Shown here one piece after another: positions 4,926 through 17,620 of a DNA stretch of 40,456 nucleotides. The first letter of the stretch is position 1. The number at the start of each line of letters is the position of its first letter. The notes under the pieces were generated by a model. It did not search any database and had not been told where the DNA came from. It saw only the letters and a list, made by a program, of their open reading frames with translations. The position numbers and the translations under genes were made by a program. The DNA comes from Desulfobacterales bacterium. Lineage in GTDB: Bacteria > Desulfobacterota > Desulfobacteria > Desulfobacterales > JAHDSC01. Where the stretch lies: the NCBI GenBank assembly GCA_016931455.1, contig JAFGES010000089.1, positions 1 through 40,456 of the forward strand, read 5' to 3'.

Positions 4926-5852
4926 TTAGGATCTGTTTATTTTATCTAATATTTCCCTGCCTCCGGTTTTCAGAATTTGGAGGCCGACTTTTTTTCCTAT
5001 TTCTATCGCATTCTTTTTTTCGCCTATCAGGATTTTTTTCAATACCATTCGCCCATCGAGACTGATAAGCCCGGCGGTTAACCGAATCGTCTCTCCGGTG
5101 CATTCGGCCAGGGCAAATGCCGGAATACTGCAGCCCCCTTGAAGTTTTTTCAAGTAAGCCCTTTCTGCGGTTAAAGCTGCTTCTGTCGGTGGATGATTAA
5201 TGCATTCTCGGATTTTTCTTTTCAAGTTTGGGTCAATGGAATCGAAAACCTCTATTGCAATGCTCCCTTGGCCGACAGGCGGAACGAAGTCGGTATTAGG
5301 CAGTTCCCGGACGATCAAGTGGTCGTAATCCATTCGTTTTACACCGGCGTATGCAAGCATCAATGCATCACACTCTCCTGCTTTCATTTTTTTTATCCGA
5401 GTCTGAAGATTTCCTCTCATGTCTACTGTTGTGACGTGCGGATAAAAATGCCTGAGCATGGCCACTCTTCTGACCGAAGAAGTTCCAATGCATTGTGGTT
5501 TGTCTTTATTTTCCAAGGATAAGGAACAGTCAAAACTCAAAAGCACATCATTGGTTTTTTCGCGTTTAGTAAAAGCAATTAGGCTGAAGCCGGCCGGTAG
5601 TCGAGACGGCATATCCTTAGCGCTGTGAACGGCAAGGTCGACTTCCCCTTTTTTCAGCATCGTTTCTATTTCTTCGGTAAAAACCCCTTTGCTGCCGATT
5701 TTGGCAATCGGGGTATTGAGGATTTTATCACCGCGGGTTTCCATGGTGATGATTTCAGTTGACAGCCCCTGCCGATTGAGCATCGCGGCCACTGTTTCAG
5801 ACTGCCAAAGGGCCAGTTTACTTTTCCGTGATCCAATTTTAATTTTTTTCAT
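4926..5852 (-). CDS. hemC: Porphobilinogen deaminase (hydroxymethylbilane synthase)
   Basis: HemC joins four porphobilinogens into hydroxymethylbilane, the linear precursor of heme, siroheme and corrinoids. The 308-aa sequence has the family start IGSRKSKLALWQSE, the catalytic Asp at about 80 in VHSAKDMP, the arginines of IGTSSVRR, and the dipyrromethane-cofactor Cys at about 241 in LQGGCSIP. It is cytoplasmic. Nothing else of the tetrapyrrole pathway (hemA, hemB, hemD) is adjacent; the next genes on the strand are ectABC. The only other tetrapyrrole-related gene in the window is the exported methylase-fold protein at 9201, on the opposite strand. Confidence 0.97.
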   Translation of the reverse strand: MKKIKIGSRKSKLALWQSETVAAMLNRQGLSTEIITMETRGDKILNTPIAKIGSKGVFTEEIETMLKKGEVDLAVHSAKDMPSRLPAGFSLIAFTKREKTNDVLLSFDCSLSLENKDKPQCIGTSSVRRVAMLRHFYPHVTTVDMRGNLQTRIKKMKAGECDALMLAYAGVKRMDYDHLIVRELPNTDFVPPVGQGSIAIEVFDSIDPNLKRKIRECINHPPTEAALTAERAYLKKLQGGCSIPAFALAECTGETIRLTAGLISLDGRMVLKKILIGEKKNAIEIGKKVGLQILKTGGREILDKINRS

Positions 5853-6635
5853 AATATTAAATAAGTTATTGTTATTTTTGATTATAATTATTTATTAATT
5901 TTAAATAAGATTCATGTCGGTTGCGAAAACAACTTATTGCAGACTGCAGTTACAGGATATGGAGTTGCTCTTGTTTTAGAAGTTGATTACTTGCGTTTGT
6001 TTGGTTTTGATCAAAAACGCAATGATCGCCATTTCCGGCTTGGAAGGGGATCAAGCAGGGAGTTAAATGTTACAGCCCCAGATAACTAAAAACAGATAAC
6101 TAAAAGATAAGATAAAAGCTACAAAGGCAAATTTATTGATGACATATAATCAATAAACCCTGATTTAGACTGATTAAAATTGATTTCGATTTTAGCCCGT
6201 GGCCGGGTCTATTGAAATTACAAGTGAAAATAAACGTCTAAGATTTTGAGCTTAGACTCTTTGGTGAATTTGCTTTTTAATTATGTCTCATCCCGAGAAA
6301 TGATATATTTCAGCCATAAATTGAGACTTAAATTATTGAGCGCATAATATAAATTTAAAAGAACAAAATATAATTACTTATTATTATTTTATTTCTAATC
6401 AATAAAAAATAACCTTTAACATATAGAATCAATAAAATCAAATACTTTTATCTAAACAATTCGGGTAACCGGTTTTGAAAATTATATACTTAATACTTTT
6501 AACAGGTAATCATTATCCCATACAGCCATGAAACGTTTTGATTTTAAGCTCTTTTTAATGATGATCCTCAATTGTTTCATGATAATCAGAGACCAAATCT
6601 TTGAAATTTTCTTTCTTGTTTCAAATGTGGTTACC
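5853..6635. other. AT-rich intergenic region, no gene seen
   Basis: About 780 bp with no convincing coding frame. It contains the hemC upstream region, a tandem 13-mer (CAGATAACTAAAA at 6079-6091 and 6093-6105, period 14) and an inverted repeat GTCTAAG/CTTAGAC at 6236-6257 without a T-tract. I see no tRNA or recognisable riboswitch. Confidence 0.5.
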
Positions 6636-6658
6636 CTGCCGCTATACTGAATTAGATA

Positions 6659-6687
6659 TTGACAAGGCCAAATTTTTCTATTATAGA
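6659..6687 (+). promoter_or_regulatory. Strong sigma70-like promoter
   Basis: A perfect TTGACA (6659-6664) and TATAGA (6682-6687) are 17 nt apart. The pair lies inside an 8-bp perfect inverted repeat, CTGCCGCT at 6636-6643 and AGCGGCAG at 6702-6709. No gene starts for about 380 nt downstream, but a strong terminator does lie there, which suggests a short non-coding transcript. Confidence 0.5.
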
Positions 6688-6693
6688 ATTTTC

Positions 6694-6818
6694 AACATTT
6701 AAGCGGCAGAAGCCCTTATACGAAATTTGAAAACGCTTTAGCGGTGCCGATGTTTATTGTCAATAGGCCACGAAGGCTTTCATCCGACAACGGATAAGAT
6801 GCTTTCGTGGCTTTTTTT
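6694..6818 (+). ncRNA. Candidate small RNA
   Basis: A transcript from the promoter at 6659-6687 would run about 120 nt to the terminator at 6767-6818. It has no ribosome-binding site with an open frame. Its 5' half can pair AAGC (6701-6704) with GCTT (6735-6738) and GGCA (6705-6708) with TGCC (6745-6748); these pairings interleave as in an H-type pseudoknot. I do not recognise the family. It could be a trans-acting small RNA or an attenuated leader for the receptor gene at 7068. Promoter and terminator are seen; the RNA itself is inference. Confidence 0.4.
6767..6818 (+). terminator. Rho-independent terminator
   Basis: GCCACGAAGGC (6767-6777) pairs with GCTTTCGTGGC (6801-6811), with an inner ATCCG/CGGAT stem, and is followed by seven T. 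No protein gene ends here, so it terminates either a small RNA or a leader transcript. Confidence 0.8.
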
Positions 6819-6837
6819 ATGATCTGTGAAAGGCGAA

Positions 6838-6960
6838 AGGGGGTGGTTTGAAATAAAGCGGACAGAAAAGGATAGGGTTGGGAAAGACGGCATGCTCAGG
6901 CCGGAGTCATAAATCCGTCTTTCCCGGAAAGCCCCCTCGGTGTGAGAGCTGCTTTTTTTA
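6838..6960 (+). other. Large folded non-coding element upstream of receptor gene
   Basis: An outer stem AGGGGG (6838-6843) with CCCCCT (6932-6937) encloses an 11-bp perfect stem GGGAAAGACGG (6880-6890) with CCGTCTTTCCC (6915-6925). A run of seven T follows at about 6953-6959. The layout is that of a structured leader, but I could not match it to the cobalamin, molybdenum cofactor or fluoride riboswitch consensus. It ends about 110 nt before the receptor start. Confidence 0.4.
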
Positions 6961-7018
6961 TTCCGTTACTATGAAAAGCATCCATCTGTCAACATTCCTC
7001 TAACACAAACCGCAAACT

Positions 7019-7046
7019 TTGTCGCACCTGGCGGGGGCAATATAAA
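7019..7046 (+). promoter_or_regulatory. Promoter-like pair before receptor gene
   Basis: TTGTCG at 7019-7024 and TATAAA at 7041-7046 are 16 nt apart and would start transcription about 15 nt before the receptor ATG. If used, the folded element upstream is not in the mRNA. Confidence 0.35.
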
Positions 7047-7067
7047 ATTCTATAAGAAAAGGAAAAG

Positions 7068-9146
7068 ATGATGAAGATTATGAGATTGGGTCTTCTCATC
7101 TCGATAGGGTTTCTTTTTTTCTTTTCCACCTCGAAATTCATTATTGCCGAGACTGTGGATTCAGGGACTGAAGTGGTGGATTCGAAAAAAACGGAAACAG
7201 CTTATCGACTTGAGGAGGTCATTGTACGGGATCATCCTTTGAAGGATGAAACAATGGTTGTGACACCAGATGTTACCATCATTAATATAGATAAATTTAA
7301 AAAACCCGGACGGATGGAAAATGTGACCGATGTGATAGGCGAAGTACTCGGTGTCAACGTCCTTCATTCCTCAACAACGCCTGCTCAGAACGAGGGGGTC
7401 TACATCAGAGGAATGGACCAATCCCGTTATCAGGTTTTTATGGACGGTCGTCCCATGAGGCTGCACGGCAGTAATGGTTATTTTAAGATGGACTGGACCA
7501 CGATGCCTCTTAGCAACGTTGAAACCATTGAAATCATAAGGGGAAGTCATAGCCTTCTCTTTCCCTTTTCCATGGGTGGGGCCATTAATATTATTACCAA
7601 GAAAGGGAAAAAAACGGATGACCCCACACCTCACGGTACGGTAAAGACCGGTTTTGGTCCTTACGGTGACCAAAGCTACAGCGCCAATTTAACAGGCGGA
7701 GCTTTTAATTTAATCGGTTATTCGCTTGCTGCCGCTCATAGAGAAGGTGACGGCTACTTGAGGGGCAACGACTACGATACCGATAACCTAAACGGTCGTT
7801 TTTCCTTTTTTCTTCCTACCGGGGGAACTGTTACCTACGGTATCGATTGGGTAGACACAGTGACCGGATATGCGGTGATCAATGATCCGGATGATCCGGC
7901 TTCCAACTATGATCCCGATTATCCGATTGTCCGCCTCAATGAAGTAGATACTTTCAGTCACGACTATGAAGGAACGGCCTATGCCGGCGGAAAAAACCAA
8001 TGGGAAAGAACGGTCATCGATCACAGCCTTCTTATTGAGCAACCTCTCGGAGTTGGAAAAGTCCGCGGACAGATCTATCAACAGACATCCGAACGCTCTC
8101 GATATCGCCACACAGCCACAGGCCAAGACAACTCCAATTATAAAGAGGAATATACGGGAGGTATTTCACTGGACTATTTGGGCTTTAATCTAATTGATAA
8201 CCACTGCTTTTCCATCGGCGGTGATTATCGAAATCAGGGTACTGATGACAACCGCGACTTTTACGAAATTACCTCCATTTTTATCAAGGATGTATGGGCC
8301 ATTAATAACGCTGTGTACCTGACCTTCGGCACTCGGTGGTATGAATTTATCAGTGATGGTTATGCCGCGATTACCTTGGAACCAGCCAAACACAAAGAAA
8401 AAGAATGGTGTCCCAAAGCCCGCCTGGACTATGATTTTGATGATACGACCTCTTTCTATGCTTCGGTTAGCCGCGAAATGCGGATGCCTTGAATCTGAGA
8501 TCTCTGGAGATGGGCCCGGTCCGGGTCTAACGAAGAATACGCAAAGGCAAATCCGAATTTTGAAACAGAAACATCATGGACATATGAAATCGGTGGGATA
8601 AAAGATATATTCGAGAATACAACCTTTAGAGCGGCGGTTTTCTATTCGGATATCAGCGATTATCAGCAGCACAACTACATCAGTGCCGAAACCTCGGCCC
8701 TGGTATATAACATTGACATGATTGTCTACGGTCTGGAACTGGAATTGGTTAGAAGCTTCAAGAAGGATTTAAGCGGCCATCTGGGCTACACTTTTCAGGA
8801 CTGGGACGCAGAGAGTCACCCCATGGATACCGAAAACACTCACTATTTTTTACAAGCTCTGCCTGAACACAGCGCAGTCCTGGGTTTGAATTACAAACTG
8901 TGGAAAGGCGGTCTCGTGAGTTTGAATGCAAAATATTACGGCAGACGTTTTAGTAAAAAAGAAGATTTAATGAAAGACGTTCTGGTTGTGAATGTGGGTG
9001 TTGAGCACACATTTCAACTACCTTGCAATTGTACATTTACAGTTAAAGGGTATGTACGCAATATTACAGATCAGGAATATCAATTGCGATATGGATATGA
9101 CATGCCCGGCGTTACCGCGGGTATTTCAGGTACATTGAATTTTTAA
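7068..9146 (+). CDS. TonB-dependent outer-membrane receptor with two in-frame TGA codons
   Basis: Read through two TGA codons, this frame encodes 692 residues, a normal TonB-receptor length. It begins with a signal peptide (about 1-27, ending FIIAE), a TonB-box-like EEVIV, a plug domain (VYIRGMDQSRYQVFMDGRPM, IEIIRGSHSLLFPFSMGGAINIIT) and a beta barrel ending in Phe (SGTLNF). Residues 475 and 477 are TGA (8490-8492, 8496-8498). The frame continues past them without any shift: REMRMP, TGA, Ile, TGA, DLWRWARSGSNEEYAKANPNFETE, the usual 'RxPSLxDLY...NPxLxPE' barrel pattern. The second half has no start or ribosome-binding site of its own. Either both TGA are decoded (selenocysteine) or this is a young pseudogene with two nonsense changes. 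It pairs with the exported methylase-fold gene 54 bp downstream. The ligand is unknown; a corrinoid or porphyrin is a guess from context. Confidence 0.8.
8499..8528 (+). promoter_or_regulatory. SECIS-like hairpin after tandem UGA
   Basis: Bases 8512-8517 (GGGCCC) pair with 8523-8528 (GGGTCT; two G-U pairs) around a GGTCC loop at 8518-8522. The loop begins 19 nt after the second TGA. E. coli fdhF-type SECIS elements have a G-U-containing small loop at a similar distance. The stem is short and the bulged U of fdhF is not evident, so this is only a candidate. Confidence 0.35.
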
Positions 9147-9200
9147 GTCATGACGTTATTCGAGGAAAGGTCCCGATCGGGACTTAAAAGGAGGATATAG

Positions 9201-10124
9201 ATGCAATATTTCCGTAGGTTCGGATTTACTCCAAACGTTTTTTCCCGGTTTTTATTGTGTATTTCTATTTTGTGCATGGCGATTACCGCTTTTGCCCATG
9301 GAAATAAAGTTACCGGTAAATTCTATCTCATCGGCACGGGTCCTGCTGGGCCCGAACTTGCAACGACTAGGGCACTGGAATGCATTAAAGAGGCAGAAAT
9401 CATATTTTGCTCCGATGATATCGCCAAAAAGTTTTCAACACAATTGAAAGGCAAAACGCTGATGGGCAATCCCTGGCGAGGTCCTTTTAAATATAGTTCG
9501 AAAGACGTTGAAAAGATTAATGCTGAAGAAAAAAAGGCTTACCAAGATGAACGAATCCGATTCTGGGACGAAACTGCCGCTAAGATCAGAAGCGAGGTGG
9601 CTAAAGGAAAGACAGTGGCCCTTCTGGATAGCGGAGACCCCTGTGTTTTCGGCCCATCGCACCGGATCATTGAGGGGTTGAATGAAGATGAGGTGGAAAT
9701 CATTCCCGGCCTTGGTTGTTTTCAATCGGCTATGGCTGCGTTGAAAAAATCTTCCATTCCCGCTTACGATACCCGCTTTGTCATGCTGACTGCTCCAATG
9801 TTTCTATTCGGAAGGCCCGAAAATGAGGATATTTTGAAAGATCTCTCAAAATATCCGATTACCATGGTTTTTTATATGGCGTTGAATCAAAAAGAAAGTT
9901 TGATTGCTAAGCTTAAAAAGTACTACGAATCGGATCTTCCTGTTGCCGTCGTGTATAATGCAGGATATCCGGACAAGGAAAAGGTGATTAAAGGAACATT
10001 GGCTACCATTCTTGACGATATCAAAGCGGAAGCGGAAAATTGGCTGGGAATTATCATCGTAGGCCGATGCCTTGAGGGTCAACCCCAGCGTGGTATGGTC
10101 AAACATATCACCGCGGGGCCTTGA
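9201..10124 (+). CDS. Exported tetrapyrrole (corrin/porphyrin) methylase-fold protein
   Basis: The 307-aa protein has a clear Sec signal peptide: basic start, hydrophobic stretch FLLCISILCMAITAFA, probable cleavage after A32. The mature part is a full TP_methylase domain: YLIGTGPAGPEL (about 42-53), LLDSGDPCVFG (141-151), IIPGLGCFQSAMAAL (167-181) and MVFYMALNQ. In the cytoplasm this fold (CbiL, CbiF, CobA and relatives) methylates corrin or siroheme precursors using SAM. SAM is not expected in the periplasm, so an exported copy more likely binds or handles a tetrapyrrole than methylates it; that is inference. A GGAGG ribosome-binding site precedes the ATG. It lies 54 bp after the TonB receptor and is followed by a strong terminator, so the two form an operon. 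Confidence 0.85.
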   Translation: MQYFRRFGFTPNVFSRFLLCISILCMAITAFAHGNKVTGKFYLIGTGPAGPELATTRALECIKEAEIIFCSDDIAKKFSTQLKGKTLMGNPWRGPFKYSSKDVEKINAEEKKAYQDERIRFWDETAAKIRSEVAKGKTVALLDSGDPCVFGPSHRIIEGLNEDEVEIIPGLGCFQSAMAALKKSSIPAYDTRFVMLTAPMFLFGRPENEDILKDLSKYPITMVFYMALNQKESLIAKLKKYYESDLPVAVVYNAGYPDKEKVIKGTLATILDDIKAEAENWLGIIIVGRCLEGQPQRGMVKHITAGP

Positions 10125-11061: not shown

Positions 11062-13044
11062 ATGATTGTATTTCTTTTAAGTGTAATCATTATCGTGGCA
11101 AGCGGATTTGCCGCTCTTGTGACTCGGCGATCCAACAGCCTTTCAACCTTCTTGGGCGTCGGTGGTGTGTGTGCCGGAAGCCTGATCGGTCTGATTCCAA
11201 CGTTTAACGTTCTCATACATGGATCCCGACTATCTCTGCATTTGCCATGGCATTTCGCATGGGGATCATTTTTCGTAGAAATTGATCCGTTGTCCTCCTT
11301 TTTTCTTATCCCTGTTTTTGGTGTATCCATCCTGACCGCAGTCTATGGTGCGGGCTACCTTCAGCATTACCGGCAGACCCATTTGCTGGGTGTACACTGG
11401 TTCTTTTTCAATCTTTTGGTAGCCGGTATGGCAATGGTGGCAGTGGCCGGGAACGGTGTATTATTTCTGATATCATGGGAAGTTATGTCTCTGGCGCCTT
11501 TTTTCCTGGTCACGTTTCACAGTGATCAATCAAAAGTCCAACATGCCGGTTGGGTATATTTGGTGGCAACGCATTTGGGAGCAATTTTTCTGTTGGTTTT
11601 TTTTCTATTGATGGGCGTTAACTCCGGAAGCATGGATTTTGACCATTTCAATCCATCCGGATACCATCACTTGAGTCTACTGTTTCTATTGGCTGTTATC
11701 GGATTTGGCTCAAAATCCGGGTTTATACCGTTTCATGTCTGGCTGCCGGAAGCCCATCCAGCCGCTCCGAGCCATGTATCGGCCCTTATGTCCGGCGTTA
11801 TGATTAAAATGGGAATTTATGGTTTGTTCCGGTCGTTGGTCTTGTTGGGGGTACCTTCTGTCGGGTGGGGATATGTTTTCATCGGAATCGGCCTGATTTC
11901 GGGTATCGCCGGTGTGACGTTCGCTCTGGCGCAGCATGACCTGAAACGGCTGCTGGCATACCATAGTGTTGAAAATATCGGTATCATTTCCATCGGAATT
12001 GGAATTGGAATGCTGGGGCTGAGCTGGGATAATCCCGTACTGGTCGTCATGGGGATGGGGGGCGCGTTGCTTCATGTTCTAAACCATTCGCTTTTCAAGA
12101 GTTTGCTTTTTCTCGGTGCCGGATCGGTTCAGCACGCTTCGGGAACACTGGAAATCGAACATATGGGAGGACTTCTCAAACGAATGCCGATAACCGGTAT
12201 GACATTTCTGGTCGGTGCGGCAGCCATATGCGGCTTACCTCCTTTAAACGGATTTATCAGTGAATTTCTCATTTACCAAGGATCAGTTTACGGCAGTATG
12301 TTTCTGGAGGGAGCCACAGTGGGTGCCATGCCGGCGGTTATCGCAGGTCTTGCACTGATTGGAGGGCTTGCCGCCATATGTTTTACAAAAGCATTCGGTA
12401 TTGTCTTTCTAGGTACGGCCCGCAGGGAGAAGGGAGTATCTGTACGGGAATCCAGGTTGTCCATGAAAATTCCCATGCTGATTTTATCCGCTTTATGCCT
12501 GCTCTGCGGGTTGCTCGGAGCTGATATTCTTAAAACAGCGGCGCCGGTTTTAAACATGGTGACGATGAACCGTTTTTTAGATGCAATACCATTAGAACTT
12601 ATTAAGGCGGCAAATTCACTGCGGTCGGTGACATGGGTATTTGCCGGATTGATCCTGATTCTAACCGGCCTGATATTTTTTCGTAAGTGGCTGCTTTCAA
12701 AACGTTATGTGCAGGAAGGCGTTACCTGGGACTGCGGCTATATTCGTCCCACATCGCGAATGCAGTATACGGCATCGTCTTTTGTTCAGCCCGTAACAGG
12801 CTTTTTTCGTAATATATTACAAACACGAAATATAGTATCCCCGCCTCATGGTCTCTTTCCAACAAAGGTTTCTTTGACCACCAAGACCCCGGATGTTTTT
12901 GAAAAGAAATTCTATTCACCCTTGTTCGAAGGGACAAAACGTATATTGTTTGGGTTGCGCTGGATCCAGCAAGGACGGATCCAGCTGTATATTGCCTATA
13001 TTGTGATAACTTTGATTATTCTTTTGATATGGAAAGTGAGATGA
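11062..13044 (+). CDS. hyfB: HyfB-like proton-translocating membrane subunit
   Basis: This 660-aa polytopic membrane protein belongs to the NuoL/MrpA antiporter-like family and is closest in layout to HyfB/HycC. The conserved core is visible: LISWEVMSLAPFFLV, GSKSGFIPFHVWLPEAHPAAPSHVSALMSGVMIKMGIYG, QHDLKRLLAYHSVENIGII, then LNHSLFKSLLFLGAGSV. The lysine in GSKSGFIP and the histidine/lysine residues of the broken helices are those used for proton transfer in the family. The C-terminal tail TWDCGYIRPTSRMQYTASSFVQP is typical of HyfB. It sits in the cytoplasmic membrane and is the first structural gene of a six-gene operon. Symbol given by homology; the partner large subunit lacks nickel ligands, so this is not a true hydrogenase-4. 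Confidence 0.9.
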   Translation: MIVFLLSVIIIVASGFAALVTRRSNSLSTFLGVGGVCAGSLIGLIPTFNVLIHGSRLSLHLPWHFAWGSFFVEIDPLSSFFLIPVFGVSILTAVYGAGYLQHYRQTHLLGVHWFFFNLLVAGMAMVAVAGNGVLFLISWEVMSLAPFFLVTFHSDQSKVQHAGWVYLVATHLGAIFLLVFFLLMGVNSGSMDFDHFNPSGYHHLSLLFLLAVIGFGSKSGFIPFHVWLPEAHPAAPSHVSALMSGVMIKMGIYGLFRSLVLLGVPSVGWGYVFIGIGLISGIAGVTFALAQHDLKRLLAYHSVENIGIISIGIGIGMLGLSWDNPVLVVMGMGGALLHVLNHSLFKSLLFLGAGSVQHASGTLEIEHMGGLLKRMPITGMTFLVGAAAICGLPPLNGFISEFLIYQGSVYGSMFLEGATVGAMPAVIAGLALIGGLAAICFTKAFGIVFLGTARREKGVSVRESRLSMKIPMLILSALCLLCGLLGADILKTAAPVLNMVTMNRFLDAIPLELIKAANSLRSVTWVFAGLILILTGLIFFRKWLLSKRYVQEGVTWDCGYIRPTSRMQYTASSFVQPVTGFFRNILQTRNIVSPPHGLFPTKVSLTTKTPDVFEKKFYSPLFEGTKRILFGLRWIQQGRIQLYIAYIVITLIILLIWKVR

Positions 13045-13967
13045 TGACATATTGGTCCCATCAATCCATATCGCCGGTTATTTCGGCGATTTTTCTAGCG
13101 CCGCTTCTTTTTGGTGTTATCAATTGGATCAAAGCATTTTTATCCGGTCGACGGGGTGCACCCTGGCTGCAGCCCTATTTTGATCTATGGAAGCTGATGC
13201 GTAAAAGTGCGGTATACAGCCGAACAACAACATGGATATTTCGTGCCGGGCCGTTGGTCGGTTTAGGGGCTATCTTAACGGCAGCTATGATAATGCCGAT
13301 GGGCAATATACCCGCATTGGTGAGCTTTCCAGGGGATTTTGTTCTATTTGCTTATCTGCTGGCACTCGGACGGTTTTTCACCATTATTGCCGCCTTAGAT
13401 ACGGGATCAAGTTTTCAAGGTATGGGTGCAAGCCGTGAAGCTTATTTTTCAGCGCTGTCTGAACCGGCTCTGCTGCTTGCTCTTACGGCAGTTGCCCGTC
13501 GGACGGGCAGTAATTCACTGTCCGGAATGTATGAGGTATTGTCAAGTGGTTCCTGGGCGCTTGTGTCTCCGGCAATGGTGCTGGTGTTTATTGCGATATT
13601 TATCGTTTTTCTGACGGAAAATGCTCGAATTCCCGTAGATGATCCCACAACTCATCTGGAACTGACCATGATTCATGAGGTCATGGTACTGGATCACGGC
13701 GGACCGGACTTGGCCTTTATAAACTACGGTGCTGCCCTGAAGATGTGGATTCTCGGCCAGCTTTTGATCGGAATTGTCAATCCGGTGCATACCGGTATCA
13801 TGTGGCTGAACCAGACGATATCCATTGTTGTTTCGCTATCCGGACCGGCAATAGCAGTGGGCTTGATTGAGTTTTCCATGGCACGGCTGAGACTGAAGCG
13901 GGTGCCTCAGCTGCTGGTGGCAGCCGGTATTTTCTCCGTACTGGCCCTGATTATGGAATTGAGGTGA
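13041..13967 (+). CDS. hyfC: HyfC/NuoH-like membrane subunit
   Basis: An eight-helix-type membrane protein of about 308 aa of the respiratory complex I subunit 1 family (NuoH, HycD, HyfC). Typical motifs are GAPWLQPYFDLWKLMRK, LALGRFFTIIAALDTGSSFQGMGASREAYFSALSEPALLL and ENARIPVDDPTTHLELTMIHE, the acidic loop that meets the hydrophilic arm. An ATG at 13041 overlaps the previous stop (ATGA); another ATG is at 13029 and one at 13044, so the exact start is uncertain. It anchors the HyfG/HyfI-like module and forms part of the proton path in the family. It is followed 3 bp later by the HyfE-like gene. Confidence 0.9.
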   Translation: MMTYWSHQSISPVISAIFLAPLLFGVINWIKAFLSGRRGAPWLQPYFDLWKLMRKSAVYSRTTTWIFRAGPLVGLGAILTAAMIMPMGNIPALVSFPGDFVLFAYLLALGRFFTIIAALDTGSSFQGMGASREAYFSALSEPALLLALTAVARRTGSNSLSGMYEVLSSGSWALVSPAMVLVFIAIFIVFLTENARIPVDDPTTHLELTMIHEVMVLDHGGPDLAFINYGAALKMWILGQLLIGIVNPVHTGIMWLNQTISIVVSLSGPAIAVGLIEFSMARLRLKRVPQLLVAAGIFSVLALIMELR

Positions 13968-13970
13968 ACG

Positions 13971-14615
13971 ATGAATAACTGGATTGACCTGTTGATTATA
14001 TTACTGATCCTGTCCAACTTCGTCATGCTGGGATCAAGCCGGCTGGCAGTATGTATTCGTACGCTTGCGATTCAGGGTATATTGCTGGGCATATTGCCCT
14101 TGATGATCGACAGGCAGGATCTTGTGCTGCATACAACCTTAGTATCGATCGGTGCTTTGATAATTAAAGGCATTGTATTTCCTTGGCTCCTGTTTAAAGT
14201 GTTGCGCCGGATTGGTATTCGTCGAGAAATCGAACCATTTGTCGGATATGTTCCATCGCTTTTTATTGGACTGGCGGGACTGATTGTTTCTCTGTATATC
14301 GGATCAAAGCTTGACTTTCCAGCTCCGGAGTCTGTTGCTGATGTCATCCCGTTATCGTTGTTTTCAATTCTGGCGGGTTTATTTCTTCTCACCACACGGA
14401 AAAAAGCATTGAGTATGGTAATGGGTTATCTGGTTCTGGAAAACGGTATTTACGCATTTGGTTCCGTTGTGTTGAATAAAGTTCCGGTGATCGTGGAGTT
14501 GGGTGTTTTGCTGGATGCTCTGGTGGCGGTGTTTATCATGGGTATTGCAACATATCACATCAATCGAGAGTTTGATCACATCGATGTGAATAGACTGGAC
14601 AATCTGAAAGGATAA
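13971..14615 (+). CDS. hyfE: HyfE-like membrane subunit
   Basis: A 214-aa membrane protein with about six hydrophobic segments, similar in size and pattern to HyfE (216 aa in E. coli), which contains a NuoK-like part. Visible landmarks are IDLLIILLILSNFVMLGSSRL at the start, KALSMVMGYLVLENGIYAFG (the NuoK-like conserved Glu helix) and the tail of charged residues REFDHIDVNRL. GAGGTGA precedes the ATG. It lies 3 bp after the HyfC-like gene and 6 bp before the HyfF-like gene. A role as a small proton-channel subunit is known for the family. Confidence 0.82.
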   Translation: MNNWIDLLIILLILSNFVMLGSSRLAVCIRTLAIQGILLGILPLMIDRQDLVLHTTLVSIGALIIKGIVFPWLLFKVLRRIGIRREIEPFVGYVPSLFIGLAGLIVSLYIGSKLDFPAPESVADVIPLSLFSILAGLFLLTTRKKALSMVMGYLVLENGIYAFGSVVLNKVPVIVELGVLLDALVAVFIMGIATYHINREFDHIDVNRLDNLKG

Positions 14616-14621
14616 TTATTA

Positions 14622-16103
14622 ATGCATAATGCCGGACACTTAATTTGGATCATTCTGGTTGTTTCGGTGGCATTCGGCGGCATTTGCCGAATCTTTCGAT
14701 CTCCCCGAAAAATATTGTCTTTCATGTGTGCGGGTGTTTTGGTAGTGACGGTTCCGGTACTGACTTTGGTTGTATATACGTTTTACTACGGGGCGGTATC
14801 TTCTGCCGGTCAATGGTTTTACATCGATTCGCTTTCTGCATTTCACCTGGTGGTCATGATGCTGGTGTTCTGCATGAGTACCTTTTACGGTTATCATTAT
14901 TTTGATGAAAAAATCGACGAAGGCATATTTACGACCCGTCTGGCCAGACGATACGGAAGCCTGTGGTTTGCGTCTCTAACGGCGATGACATTGGTGTTGG
15001 TATCCAACAACCTGGGGATCATGTGGGTTGGGATGGAGACTACCACCCTGGTGACCGCTTTCCTGATTAATCTGTACTCCAATAAAACGGCTGTGGAAGC
15101 CATGTGGAAATACCTGATCATCTGTTCGGTTGGTATTGCCTTTGCTTTCATGGGTACCCTCTTGGTAGCCGCATCCGCCTACACGCTGGAAACCCATGTG
15201 GCTGATGTGTTGTTGTGGACAAAGCTAGTAAAAGTCGGCGAGGTTTTAAACCCGGCACTGTTAAAAACAGGCTTTGTATTTATTCTTGTAGGATATGGGA
15301 CAAAGGCCGGTCTGGCTCCCATGCATACTTGGCTGCCTGATGCGCATAGCCAGGCCCCCGCTCCGGTATCAGCCATATTTTCGGGATTTATGCTTAATGC
15401 CGCGCTTTACTGTATCATGCGCTATATATCCCTGGTGGATTTGGTTTCAGAGACTTTTAGCCAAGAACTTCTGGTTTTGTTCGGAATCGGTACCATTATC
15501 ATTTCGGCAGCATTTATTCTTTCTCAGCATGATCTCAAACGGTTGCTGGCTTATCACAGTGTGGAGCATCTGGGCATCATAACATTGGGCTTGGGATTAG
15601 GGCCTGCAGGCATCTTTGCGGCATTGTTTCATACGCTCAACCATTCGGTGTGCAAGTCACTCGGTTTTTTTTGCGCGGGACGGCTCGGTCAGATTTACGG
15701 AACATATGATATGAGACAAATTTCAGGTTCGATGCATCTTTCTTTCTTATGGGGTGGTGGGCTAATGGGCAGCCTTTTAGCGCTTATCGGCCTTGCGCCG
15801 TTTGCATTGTTCATGAGCGAGCTTCTGATAGTAAAAGCTGCTCTGGAGACGGATACTATTTGGGCAATGGTACTTTTTCTTGCCGGCAGCAGCATCGTAT
15901 TTGTCGGTGCACTGAAACATATAATCCCCATTGCCTGGGGTAAACCATCGACCGATCATGTCTGCCTGAAAAGCATGTTGACAGACAAAGTCTTAGTATT
16001 GGGAGCTTTGGCCCTTTTATTGATGCTGGGGCTTTGGATGCCGGATGTGCTGCATGAGATACTTTACCGGGCGGCATATATTGTTGGAGGGCACCACAAT
16101 TGA
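14622..16103 (+). CDS. hyfF: HyfF-like proton-translocating membrane subunit
   Basis: Second antiporter-like subunit of the operon (493 aa; HyfF in E. coli is 526). Core motifs are MWVGMETTTLVTAFLINLY, GYGTKAGLAPMHTWLPDAHSQAPAPVSAIFSGFMLNAALYCIMRY, SQHDLKRLLAYHSVEHLGI and LNHSVCKSLGFFCAGRLG. The Lys of GTKAGLAPMHTWLP and the His of HSVEH fit the family's proton path. It is located in the cytoplasmic membrane. The stop overlaps the start of the large-subunit gene by 4 bases, implying coupled translation. Compared with hydrogenase-4 the operon has two, not three, antiporter-like subunits: no HyfD is present. Confidence 0.88.
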   Translation: MHNAGHLIWIILVVSVAFGGICRIFRSPRKILSFMCAGVLVVTVPVLTLVVYTFYYGAVSSAGQWFYIDSLSAFHLVVMMLVFCMSTFYGYHYFDEKIDEGIFTTRLARRYGSLWFASLTAMTLVLVSNNLGIMWVGMETTTLVTAFLINLYSNKTAVEAMWKYLIICSVGIAFAFMGTLLVAASAYTLETHVADVLLWTKLVKVGEVLNPALLKTGFVFILVGYGTKAGLAPMHTWLPDAHSQAPAPVSAIFSGFMLNAALYCIMRYISLVDLVSETFSQELLVLFGIGTIIISAAFILSQHDLKRLLAYHSVEHLGIITLGLGLGPAGIFAALFHTLNHSVCKSLGFFCAGRLGQIYGTYDMRQISGSMHLSFLWGGGLMGSLLALIGLAPFALFMSELLIVKAALETDTIWAMVLFLAGSSIVFVGALKHIIPIAWGKPSTDHVCLKSMLTDKVLVLGALALLLMLGLWMPDVLHEILYRAAYIVGGHHN

Positions 16104-17620
16104 TTGAACATGATTTTTTAAGCCTAAATAATGCCGGCTGTGCGGGTATGGCTGAGATTCCCGTGGTGGATATCCATATTTTCAGAAATACCGTTATTAA
16201 TGCGGTAACGGAGGGAAGCCGTATTCTCAGTCTGTTTGTTTGCCCGGTTGACCGGCAAATGCGTCTGTTTGCGGTTCTCGGTCATGGAGGTAAAAGCCGG
16301 ATTTATATTGTTTCAAGTATTATTGGAGATGCATATCCGTCATTGACACCGGCTTGCCCGCAGGCCGAACGCTTTGAACGGGAGATAGCCGAGCAGTGGA
16401 GCATTCGTCCCGAGGGACATCCCTGGCTGAAACCAATCCGCTTTCATCACTTCTATGGCGGCCCGGCAGATGTATGGAAGCATTTGCCGGCGGATTGGAT
16501 TCCGCCCGGAGTTATTGACGGTATCAAGGTCGAGAGCGATGAAATGCACGAGGTGGCAGTCGGCCCTGTTCATGCCGGTATTATTGAACCGGGTCACTTC
16601 AGATTTCAATGCCACGGTGAACATATTTATCATATGGAGATTTGCTTAGGGTACCAACACAGGGGTATTGAACAGGCATTGGTAGGCGGACCCGATCAAC
16701 GAACGATCGGTTTTATGGAAACGTTGGCGGGAGATACGTCCATCGGTCATGCAACCGCGGGTTGCCAGATGATTGAAGCGTTATCGGCCGATAATGTTTC
16801 AGCAAGAGCATATGCCCTTCGAGGCATTGCACTCGAGCTTGAACGCATTGCCAACCATACCGGTGACCTGGGTGCGCTGGCCGGAGATATCGGATATCTT
16901 CCTGTAGCTGCCGGTTGCGGGAGACTTCGCGGTGATTTTCTTAATTTAACGGCTGAAATCTGTGGTAATCGATTCGGACGGGGACTGGTTCGACCGGGGG
17001 GAGTGGCATTTGATCTATCACATAAGGCGGTAACACAGATAGTTGTGCGACTGGAAAAAACATTTAAACAGGTCCAATCAACCGTAAGTTTACTCTGGGA
17101 AAATCCGTCGGTATTGGCCCGTTTTGAAGAAACCGGAAAGATTACCAAAAAATTGTGCCTGGATCTGGGCCTTGTAGGACCTGTTGCACGTGCCGGCGGG
17201 GTCGAACGGGATTCACGGTTTGAATTTCCTACCGGGGTTTATCGAATGGCCCATATTCCGGTAGCGACCTGTCATACAGGAGATGTGATGGGTCGAGCCT
17301 ATGTTCGTTGGCTTGAAATTCAACGATCAACGGCGTTTATCAGACAACAGTTACAAAACCTTCCGATTGCACCGATCAGGACGAAAACAGGGCAACTTTC
17401 CCCGAACGGTATTGCCGTATCGGTTGTGGAAGGATGGCGTGGGGAAATTTGTCATGTGGCCCTTACGGATGGACAGGGTCGCTTTTTACATTACAAGGTG
17501 GTGGATCCGTCCTTTCATAACTGGATGGGACTTCAGATGGCTATGCGTGATGAACAGATTTCCGATTTTCCGATATGCAATAAAAGCTTCAATCTGTCCT
17601 ATTGCGGCCATGATTTGTAA
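16100..17620 (+). CDS. hyfG: HyfG/NuoCD-like large subunit without nickel ligands (Ehr-type)
   Basis: At 506 aa it fuses a NuoC-like domain (about 1-150, ending QAERFEREIAEQWSIRPEGHPWLKP) to a NuoD/[NiFe]-hydrogenase large-subunit-like domain (VGPVHAGIIEPGHFRFQCHGE, LGYQHRGIEQ, ALELERIANHTGDLGALAGD). True [NiFe]-hydrogenases bind nickel with two CxxC motifs. Here the N-terminal site has a lone Cys (MEICLGYQHRG) and the C-terminal end (NLSYCGHDL) has no CxxC. So H2 chemistry is unlikely; this matches the 'energy-converting hydrogenase-related' complexes described in Geobacter relatives. The start is a TTG at 16100 with TTGGAGGG upstream, overlapping the previous stop. Electron donor and acceptor are unknown. 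Confidence 0.85.
   Translation: MIEHDFLSLNNAGCAGMAEIPVVDIHIFRNTVINAVTEGSRILSLFVCPVDRQMRLFAVLGHGGKSRIYIVSSIIGDAYPSLTPACPQAERFEREIAEQWSIRPEGHPWLKPIRFHHFYGGPADVWKHLPADWIPPGVIDGIKVESDEMHEVAVGPVHAGIIEPGHFRFQCHGEHIYHMEICLGYQHRGIEQALVGGPDQRTIGFMETLAGDTSIGHATAGCQMIEALSADNVSARAYALRGIALELERIANHTGDLGALAGDIGYLPVAAGCGRLRGDFLNLTAEICGNRFGRGLVRPGGVAFDLSHKAVTQIVVRLEKTFKQVQSTVSLLWENPSVLARFEETGKITKKLCLDLGLVGPVARAGGVERDSRFEFPTGVYRMAHIPVATCHTGDVMGRAYVRWLEIQRSTAFIRQQLQNLPIAPIRTKTGQLSPNGIAVSVVEGWRGEICHVALTDGQGRFLHYKVVDPSFHNWMGLQMAMRDEQISDFPICNKSFNLSYCGHDL

Follow-up and report, generated by a model that had tools for sequence, protein, structure and literature searches.

The window analysed here, the whole stretch from position 1 to 40,456 of the forward strand of contig JAFGES010000089.1 from a Desulfobacterales bacterium (GCA_016931455.1), contains a gene for a TonB-dependent receptor with the codons TGA-ATC-TGA (8490-8498) inside its reading frame, followed by a small hairpin and by a gene for an exported protein of the tetrapyrrole-methylase fold (Table 1). 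When both TGA codons are read through, the frame holds no other stop and no frameshift. The product, with a computed mass near 75 kDa, has a signal-peptide-like start (judged by eye), a Plug domain at residues 68-171 (PF07715, 55.9 bits) and a TonB barrel at residues 234-666 (PF00593, 126.8 bits). Since the barrel match covers both TGA codons, homology continues across them, and the frame with two in-frame TGAs given in a preliminary description of this DNA is borne out. The same description took the downstream codons to lack a start of their own, which is inexact, as an in-frame ATG is found at 8718, 73 codons past the second TGA. With TGA taken as selenocysteine (Sec, U), residues 474-478 read PUIUD. 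Standard translation ends at the first TGA with a 474-residue product, and the surface receptor is therefore missed.

Table 1. Features of the receptor locus, in window coordinates
Feature	Position	Strand	Remarks
TonB-dependent receptor gene	7068..9146	+	692 residues with two TGA codons read through; plug, barrel
M-R-M-P, residues 471-474	8478..8489	+	aligned with the FRAP-type segment of PhuR
First TGA	8490..8492	+	residue 475, putative selenocysteine; the sister PCPU-type clade has a Cys codon here (TGC or TGT)
Second TGA	8496..8498	+	residue 477, putative selenocysteine; TGA likewise in PCPU-type and CU-type genes
Candidate SECIS hairpin	8512..8528	+	6-pair stem GGGCCC/GGGTCT (8512-8517/8523-8528), loop GGTCC 8518-8522
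N-P-N-F, residues 495-498	8550..8561	+	PhuR has NPNL at the aligned place
Exported tetrapyrrole-methylase-fold protein	9201..10124	+	54 nt downstream of the receptor; signal-peptide-like start by eye

Two further features of the window are a 14-bp palindrome, GTCCCGATCGGGAC, at 9170-9183 in the gap that separates the receptor gene from the methylase-fold gene (noticed by eye, absent from the repeat listing), and, at 11062-17620, a series of membrane subunits that resemble those of hydrogenase-4 and complex I, with best scores below the curated cut-offs.

Conservation of the TGA pair

The read-through protein was scanned against GTDB contigs, and further searches covered 96, 389 and 395 genomes (relatives, order and phylum, respectively; the sets overlap). 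The contig scan confirmed seven loci, including one in the complete genome of Desulfosarcina widdelii, and both TGAs are present in all seven. Receptor matches at E ≤ 1e-60 were found in 41 of the 389 genomes of the order and in 25 of the 395 of the phylum. Sequencing error as the source of the TGAs was rejected, as both recur in relatives, the complete D. widdelii genome among them.

The relatives were classed by their motif codons and counted among the loci fetched from the searches, no more than 30 for each, plus a few stretches added by hand, with repeats removed. On this basis the UxU class (TGA-NNN-TGA at the motif) comprises at least 14 distinct genes, 13 of the aligned set and one more (L120), the CxU class (RLPCPUDYYWWAR) at least 22, with TGC or TGT (Cys) as the first codon and TGA as the second, and the CU-type class (VPGCUD) at least nine with TGA at the aligned second position. 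The loci fetched further included five genes with YCxxU and two relatives with Cys (YCEVC). The first TGA of the UxU class is a sense codon in none of the 14 genes, and Cys at both motif positions was not seen in the UxU or the CxU clade among these loci. Carriers of the UxU motif are spread over seven family groups of the order Desulfobacterales, and the window protein shares 56-71% identity with the 12 other UxU proteins compared. The preliminary description had left open what homologues carry at the two codons and whether this strain alone has TGA; the alignment answers with the same two TGAs in the UxU relatives and Cys at the first codon in the sister CxU clade.

The classes are recovered without the codons that name them in a motif-masked tree, computed by a quick method after leaving out same-gene duplicates, frames of less than 560 residues and scores of less than 330 to the window protein. 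UxU (13 rows) and CxU (22 rows) each form one clade with an SH-aLRT value of 100 and are sisters with a value of 97, while the CU-type genes form a separate clade. Two candidates were set aside: one sequence listed as a two-TGA relative (G318) has its TGAs near the N-terminus, outside the motif, and a match to the DNA pattern in one viral contig is due to chance, its frame being full of stops.

Decoding of the two UGA codons

The genome contains selA (609.1 bits, cut-off 267.9), selB (395.1 bits, cut-off 242.25) and selD (380.2 bits, cut-off 125), three of the four genes on which the preliminary description had made its reading depend. The fourth, selC, is represented by a partial match to tRNA-Sec (49.8 bits, gathering score 47) that is broken off at a contig end; a TCA anticodon is seen by eye, and ARAGORN makes no call for the fragment. 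The tRNA-Sec model has limited specificity, since 5 of 14 control genomes also scored above its cut-off, and the selC-like match is the weakest piece of the machinery evidence. The selD gene (L146, G000:C71:3948-4874) has one TGA within its own frame, so that the SelD of this genome is probably itself a selenoprotein.

A hairpin with a GGTCC loop 19 nt past the second TGA had been described beforehand and is present at that place; the spacer from the second TGA to its stem measures 13 nt, and its loop lies 25 nt after the first. All 35 aligned UxU and CxU genes have the hairpin at the same place, with an invariant GGG starting 13 nt past the TGA at the second motif position. The six stem pairs are paired in 92.2% of the cells, compared with 86.8% in shuffles, none of 500 of which reached as high a value. 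Pairs exchanged on both sides occur in unremarkable number (418 of 500 shuffles). At columns 27/35 both sides are exchanged in seven sequences, and as these all belong to one clade the double exchange may be a single event. One stem pair is broken in 11 of 34 sequences, all of them CxU. Stability was compared with 1000 synonymous recodings per gene, made from each gene's own codons. A 19-nt hairpin segment, which was picked after the hairpin had already been seen, is more stable than the recodings (p<0.05) in 13 of 13 UxU, 18 of 22 CxU and 7 of 9 CU-type genes, with p = 0.018 for the window. For a 36-nt segment the same test gives 2 of 13 UxU (the window, with p = 0.12, not among them), 16 of 22 CxU and 2 of 9 CU-type genes. 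By single-sequence folding against dinucleotide shuffles, the window hairpin is unremarkable (z -0.08 to -0.70). No Rfam match to the window reached the gathering level, and those within 5850-9250 were all sub-threshold. What sets the window hairpin apart is solely the comparison with synonymous recodings of its 19-nt segment, together with its conservation in relatives. From these comparisons we read the hairpin as small, real and selected at the RNA level; a single hairpin would serve both UGAs.

The preliminary description had weighed a young pseudogene with two nonsense mutations inside nine bases against its own reading. Such an origin would account for a frame broken by two stop codons and is compatible with the downstream in-frame ATG, but the identical TGA pair recurs in at least 14 distinct genes, and no other stop or frameshift has accumulated in the frame. 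Furthermore, dN/dS after the TGA codons amounts to 0.066-0.182 in the six pairs, out of seven, that allowed an estimate (dS is saturated, >2.5, in two of the six), and to 0.139-0.219 ahead of them in 4 of 7 pairs; constraint after the stop codons is, by these estimates, equal to that before them. As the TGA pair is conserved, purifying selection extends beyond the codons and sel genes are present in the genome, the receptor gene is not a pseudogene, an origin to which we give very little probability. Even less probable is that UGA is read as a different residue, for example tryptophan, through suppression or an altered code. Selenocysteine insertion is here deduced from sequence, which leaves room for such a reading, but it agrees poorly with the sister clade, whose first motif residue is Cys, and with the presence of the sel genes and the hairpin; moreover, TGA terminates 5 of the 18 window ORFs checked and is thus an ordinary stop, too. 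A further alternative is that efficient decoding is limited to the second UGA and that the first mostly terminates, keeping the protein rare or regulating it. The hairpin is 6 nt farther from the first TGA, and its distance to the second is kept by the CxU genes, which have a Cys codon in place of the first TGA. Bacterial SECIS searches use a range of 16-37 nt, within which the loop also lies for the first TGA, and this codon has not become a sense codon in any UxU gene, so that efficient decoding of the second UGA alone is very improbable.

The conservation of both TGAs, the sel genes, the hairpin and the purifying selection support the double-selenocysteine receptor that had been put forward as a candidate, and the gene is very probably a working selenoprotein gene with both UGAs decoded as selenocysteine. 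SelA, SelB, SelC and SelD would decode the two codons, directed by the single SECIS hairpin after the second, and the product would be a TonB-dependent outer-membrane receptor with Sec-Ile-Sec.

Position of the Sec pair and neighbouring genes

An AlphaFold model with Cys replacing Sec (mean pLDDT 71.6, pTM 0.74) has 22 barrel strands, of which the thirteenth (residues 461-471) stops just ahead of the motif and the fourteenth comprises residues 502-513. By strand counting in the model, residues 472-501 are predicted to form the seventh extracellular loop, with pLDDT values of 55-59 around the motif. Foldseek neighbours of the model are siderophore, PQQ, citrate, B12 and heme receptors, including PqqU, FecA and BtuB, and the best solved relatives by profile are CirA and PqqU. 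With the barrel half alone, PhuR was the one match at E ≤ 0.01 (E 0.0006), its FRTP...NPNL being aligned to RMPUIUDLW...NPNF of the window protein. According to passages in two reviews, FRAP and NPNL boxes are common to heme receptors, along with a heme-binding His (PMC6449446, PMC11442138), and in HasR the heme-assisting His lies between the two boxes (PMC11442138). Together with the PhuR alignment, this would place the Sec pair in the segment that provides a metal ligand in heme receptors. Alignment with PqqU and CirA, neither of which is a heme receptor, gives FRAP-type segments too, and the window protein scores far below the cut-offs of the heme receptor model TIGR01785 (84.2 bits, cut-off 316.85) and the vitamin B12 receptor model TIGR01779 (67.3 bits, cut-off 599.7). 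The likeness to heme receptors is one of position and does not make the window protein a member of that group.

The receptor and the methylase-fold gene are likely to form one operon. A methylase-fold gene is the next gene downstream on the same strand in 10 of 14 UxU loci, including the window; one other locus (L046) has it divergently upstream, and three (L111, L043 and L118) have none. In 10 of 15 CxU loci it lies no more than three genes downstream, and the remaining five have a Peripla_BP_2-type gene upstream, accompanied in four by FecCD permease and ATPase genes. A signal-peptide-like start was seen by eye in the methylase-fold neighbours of all 10 UxU loci and of 8 of the 10 CxU loci (not L128 and L129). 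As we know of no SAM supply in the periplasm, a carrier role is favoured over catalysis for the exported protein. In the open-licence literature, no paper was found that links a tetrapyrrole methylase with TonB, the periplasm and a signal peptide. A receptor without selenocysteine in the same genome (C8:137633-139459) is also followed by a double methylase-fold protein and a DUF4198-like gene; hence, the pairing is wider than the selenocysteines and does not explain them. This two-domain protein (L157, G000:C8:139863-141440) has a lipobox-like start. Elsewhere in the genome, a 590-residue protein (L159, G000:C56:4973-5710) combines a signal-peptide-like start and a CxxC in an unrelated N-terminal half with a methylase-fold C-terminal half.

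Also recurring near the receptors are DUF4198, an amino-acid-permease-type gene and ExbB/ExbD/TonB-like genes (the last by eye). An exported-looking fusion of IU_nuc_hydro (nucleoside hydrolase) and FmdE recurs near UxU receptors, for example at L047:7861-9357. Of eight UxU loci compared with Rfam for a riboswitch that would point to the ligand, seven gave no match. In the eighth, L118, four cobalamin riboswitches lie within 18 kb, and CbiK is encoded upstream of the receptor. Cobalamin and metal riboswitches were likewise absent from eight CxU loci and from a set of six CxU plus three CU-type loci; the other matches in these loci were a c-di-GMP-I riboswitch 6 kb from the receptor in L122, tRNAs, and two matches to Acido-Lenti-1 RNA just beside one CxU receptor (L123:7720-7910).

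Six of seven CU-type loci hold a gene for a substrate-binding protein, which adjoins the receptor directly in five of the seven. All six copies have a UDP motif by way of an in-frame TGA (L136:9988-10965; L135, L137-L140). The L136 copy is SsuA-like and scores 63.2 bits with SaoX, below the cut-off of 300; its surroundings include a permease similar to SaoP (170.8, cut-off 295), a double-cubane reductase that exceeds its cut-off, and an activase. Judged by these gene contents, the CU-type loci look like the outer-membrane arm of a Sao-like system, a system described here after NCBIfam names and passages of a 2026 review (PMC13188914).

Proposed function and comparison with known receptors

The two selenols would lie in an extracellular loop at the barrel mouth, between the segments that flank the metal ligand of heme receptors, and because of this position their most likely role is to bind the metal that an imported chelate carries. 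By this analogy, some soft-metal ligand role for the Sec pair is rather probable, and with moderate confidence we place the selenols facing outward and binding a soft metal in the ligand. That the ligand is a chelate of the tetrapyrrole or corrinoid type is a tentative suggestion, and its transfer to the neighbouring exported methylase-fold protein, which would then receive the chelate, is proposed with low confidence. The complete chain, in which a surface selenol pair grips the metal, a metallotetrapyrrole, corrinoid or other soft-metal chelate is imported and passed to a methylase-fold protein turned into a periplasmic carrier, and one SECIS serves two Sec, is rather unlikely to hold in every part. 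The Sec pair may instead be a redox device, a diselenide or a partner in thiol exchange, by which the ligand is reduced or set free at the surface. The CxU, CU and CxxU motifs of related receptors look redox-like, and a double-cubane reductase gene lies near CU-type loci; the varying spacing equally fits a metal-ligating pair, however, and no thioredoxin-like protein was found among the recurring neighbour clusters of UxU and CxU receptors with representatives scanned, a scan that was not exhaustive. We consider a redox function doubtful, yet worth keeping in mind beside metal binding.

The family to which the window protein belongs links selenium use to outer-membrane uptake. If the selenols ligate a metal, this would be a new mode of cargo recognition by TonB receptors, and the exported methylase-fold neighbour offers a handle on the identity of the cargo. 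The genes also provide a natural test of one SECIS serving two UGAs six bases apart.

A U-x-U motif in a receptor had been thought new in the preliminary description. The family as such is not: receptors with two Sec are already curated in NCBIfam, and a Sec-containing TonB receptor, predicted by deep-Sep in Desulfosarcina sp. BuS5, was published in 2025 (PMC12013277). In the open-licence literature, no paper was found that names NF049944, that mentions PUIUD together with selenocysteine or that describes the function of the PUIUD-type family, and a search by motif names gave nothing on Sec receptors among the matches listed. The window protein is a member of NF049944, "TonB-dependent receptor, PUIUD motif-type" (NCBIfam 20.0, June 2026), with 1269.2 bits (cut-off 850) over 1-686 of 686; it has the same PUIUD motif, and no difference was found. 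The PCPU (NF049947), CU (NF049946) and FCYXU (NF049945) types have the same receptor fold and a Sec codon in the same region, but one such codon in place of the two of the window protein, which remains under their cut-offs (468.9/800, 417.5/700 and 230.7/825 bits, respectively). The BuS5 receptor resembles that of the window in being a Sec-containing TonB receptor; according to the parts of the 2026 review consulted (PMC13188914), in which the FCYXU type is the sole TonB mention, it is of this type, with CxxU and one Sec, whereas the window protein has UxU and two. With PhuR and HasR, the window protein shares the 22 barrel strands of its model and the FRAP-type and NPNL segments on either side of the motif; the difference lies in the residue between them, which is a His or Tyr ligand in the heme receptors and would be Sec in the window protein.
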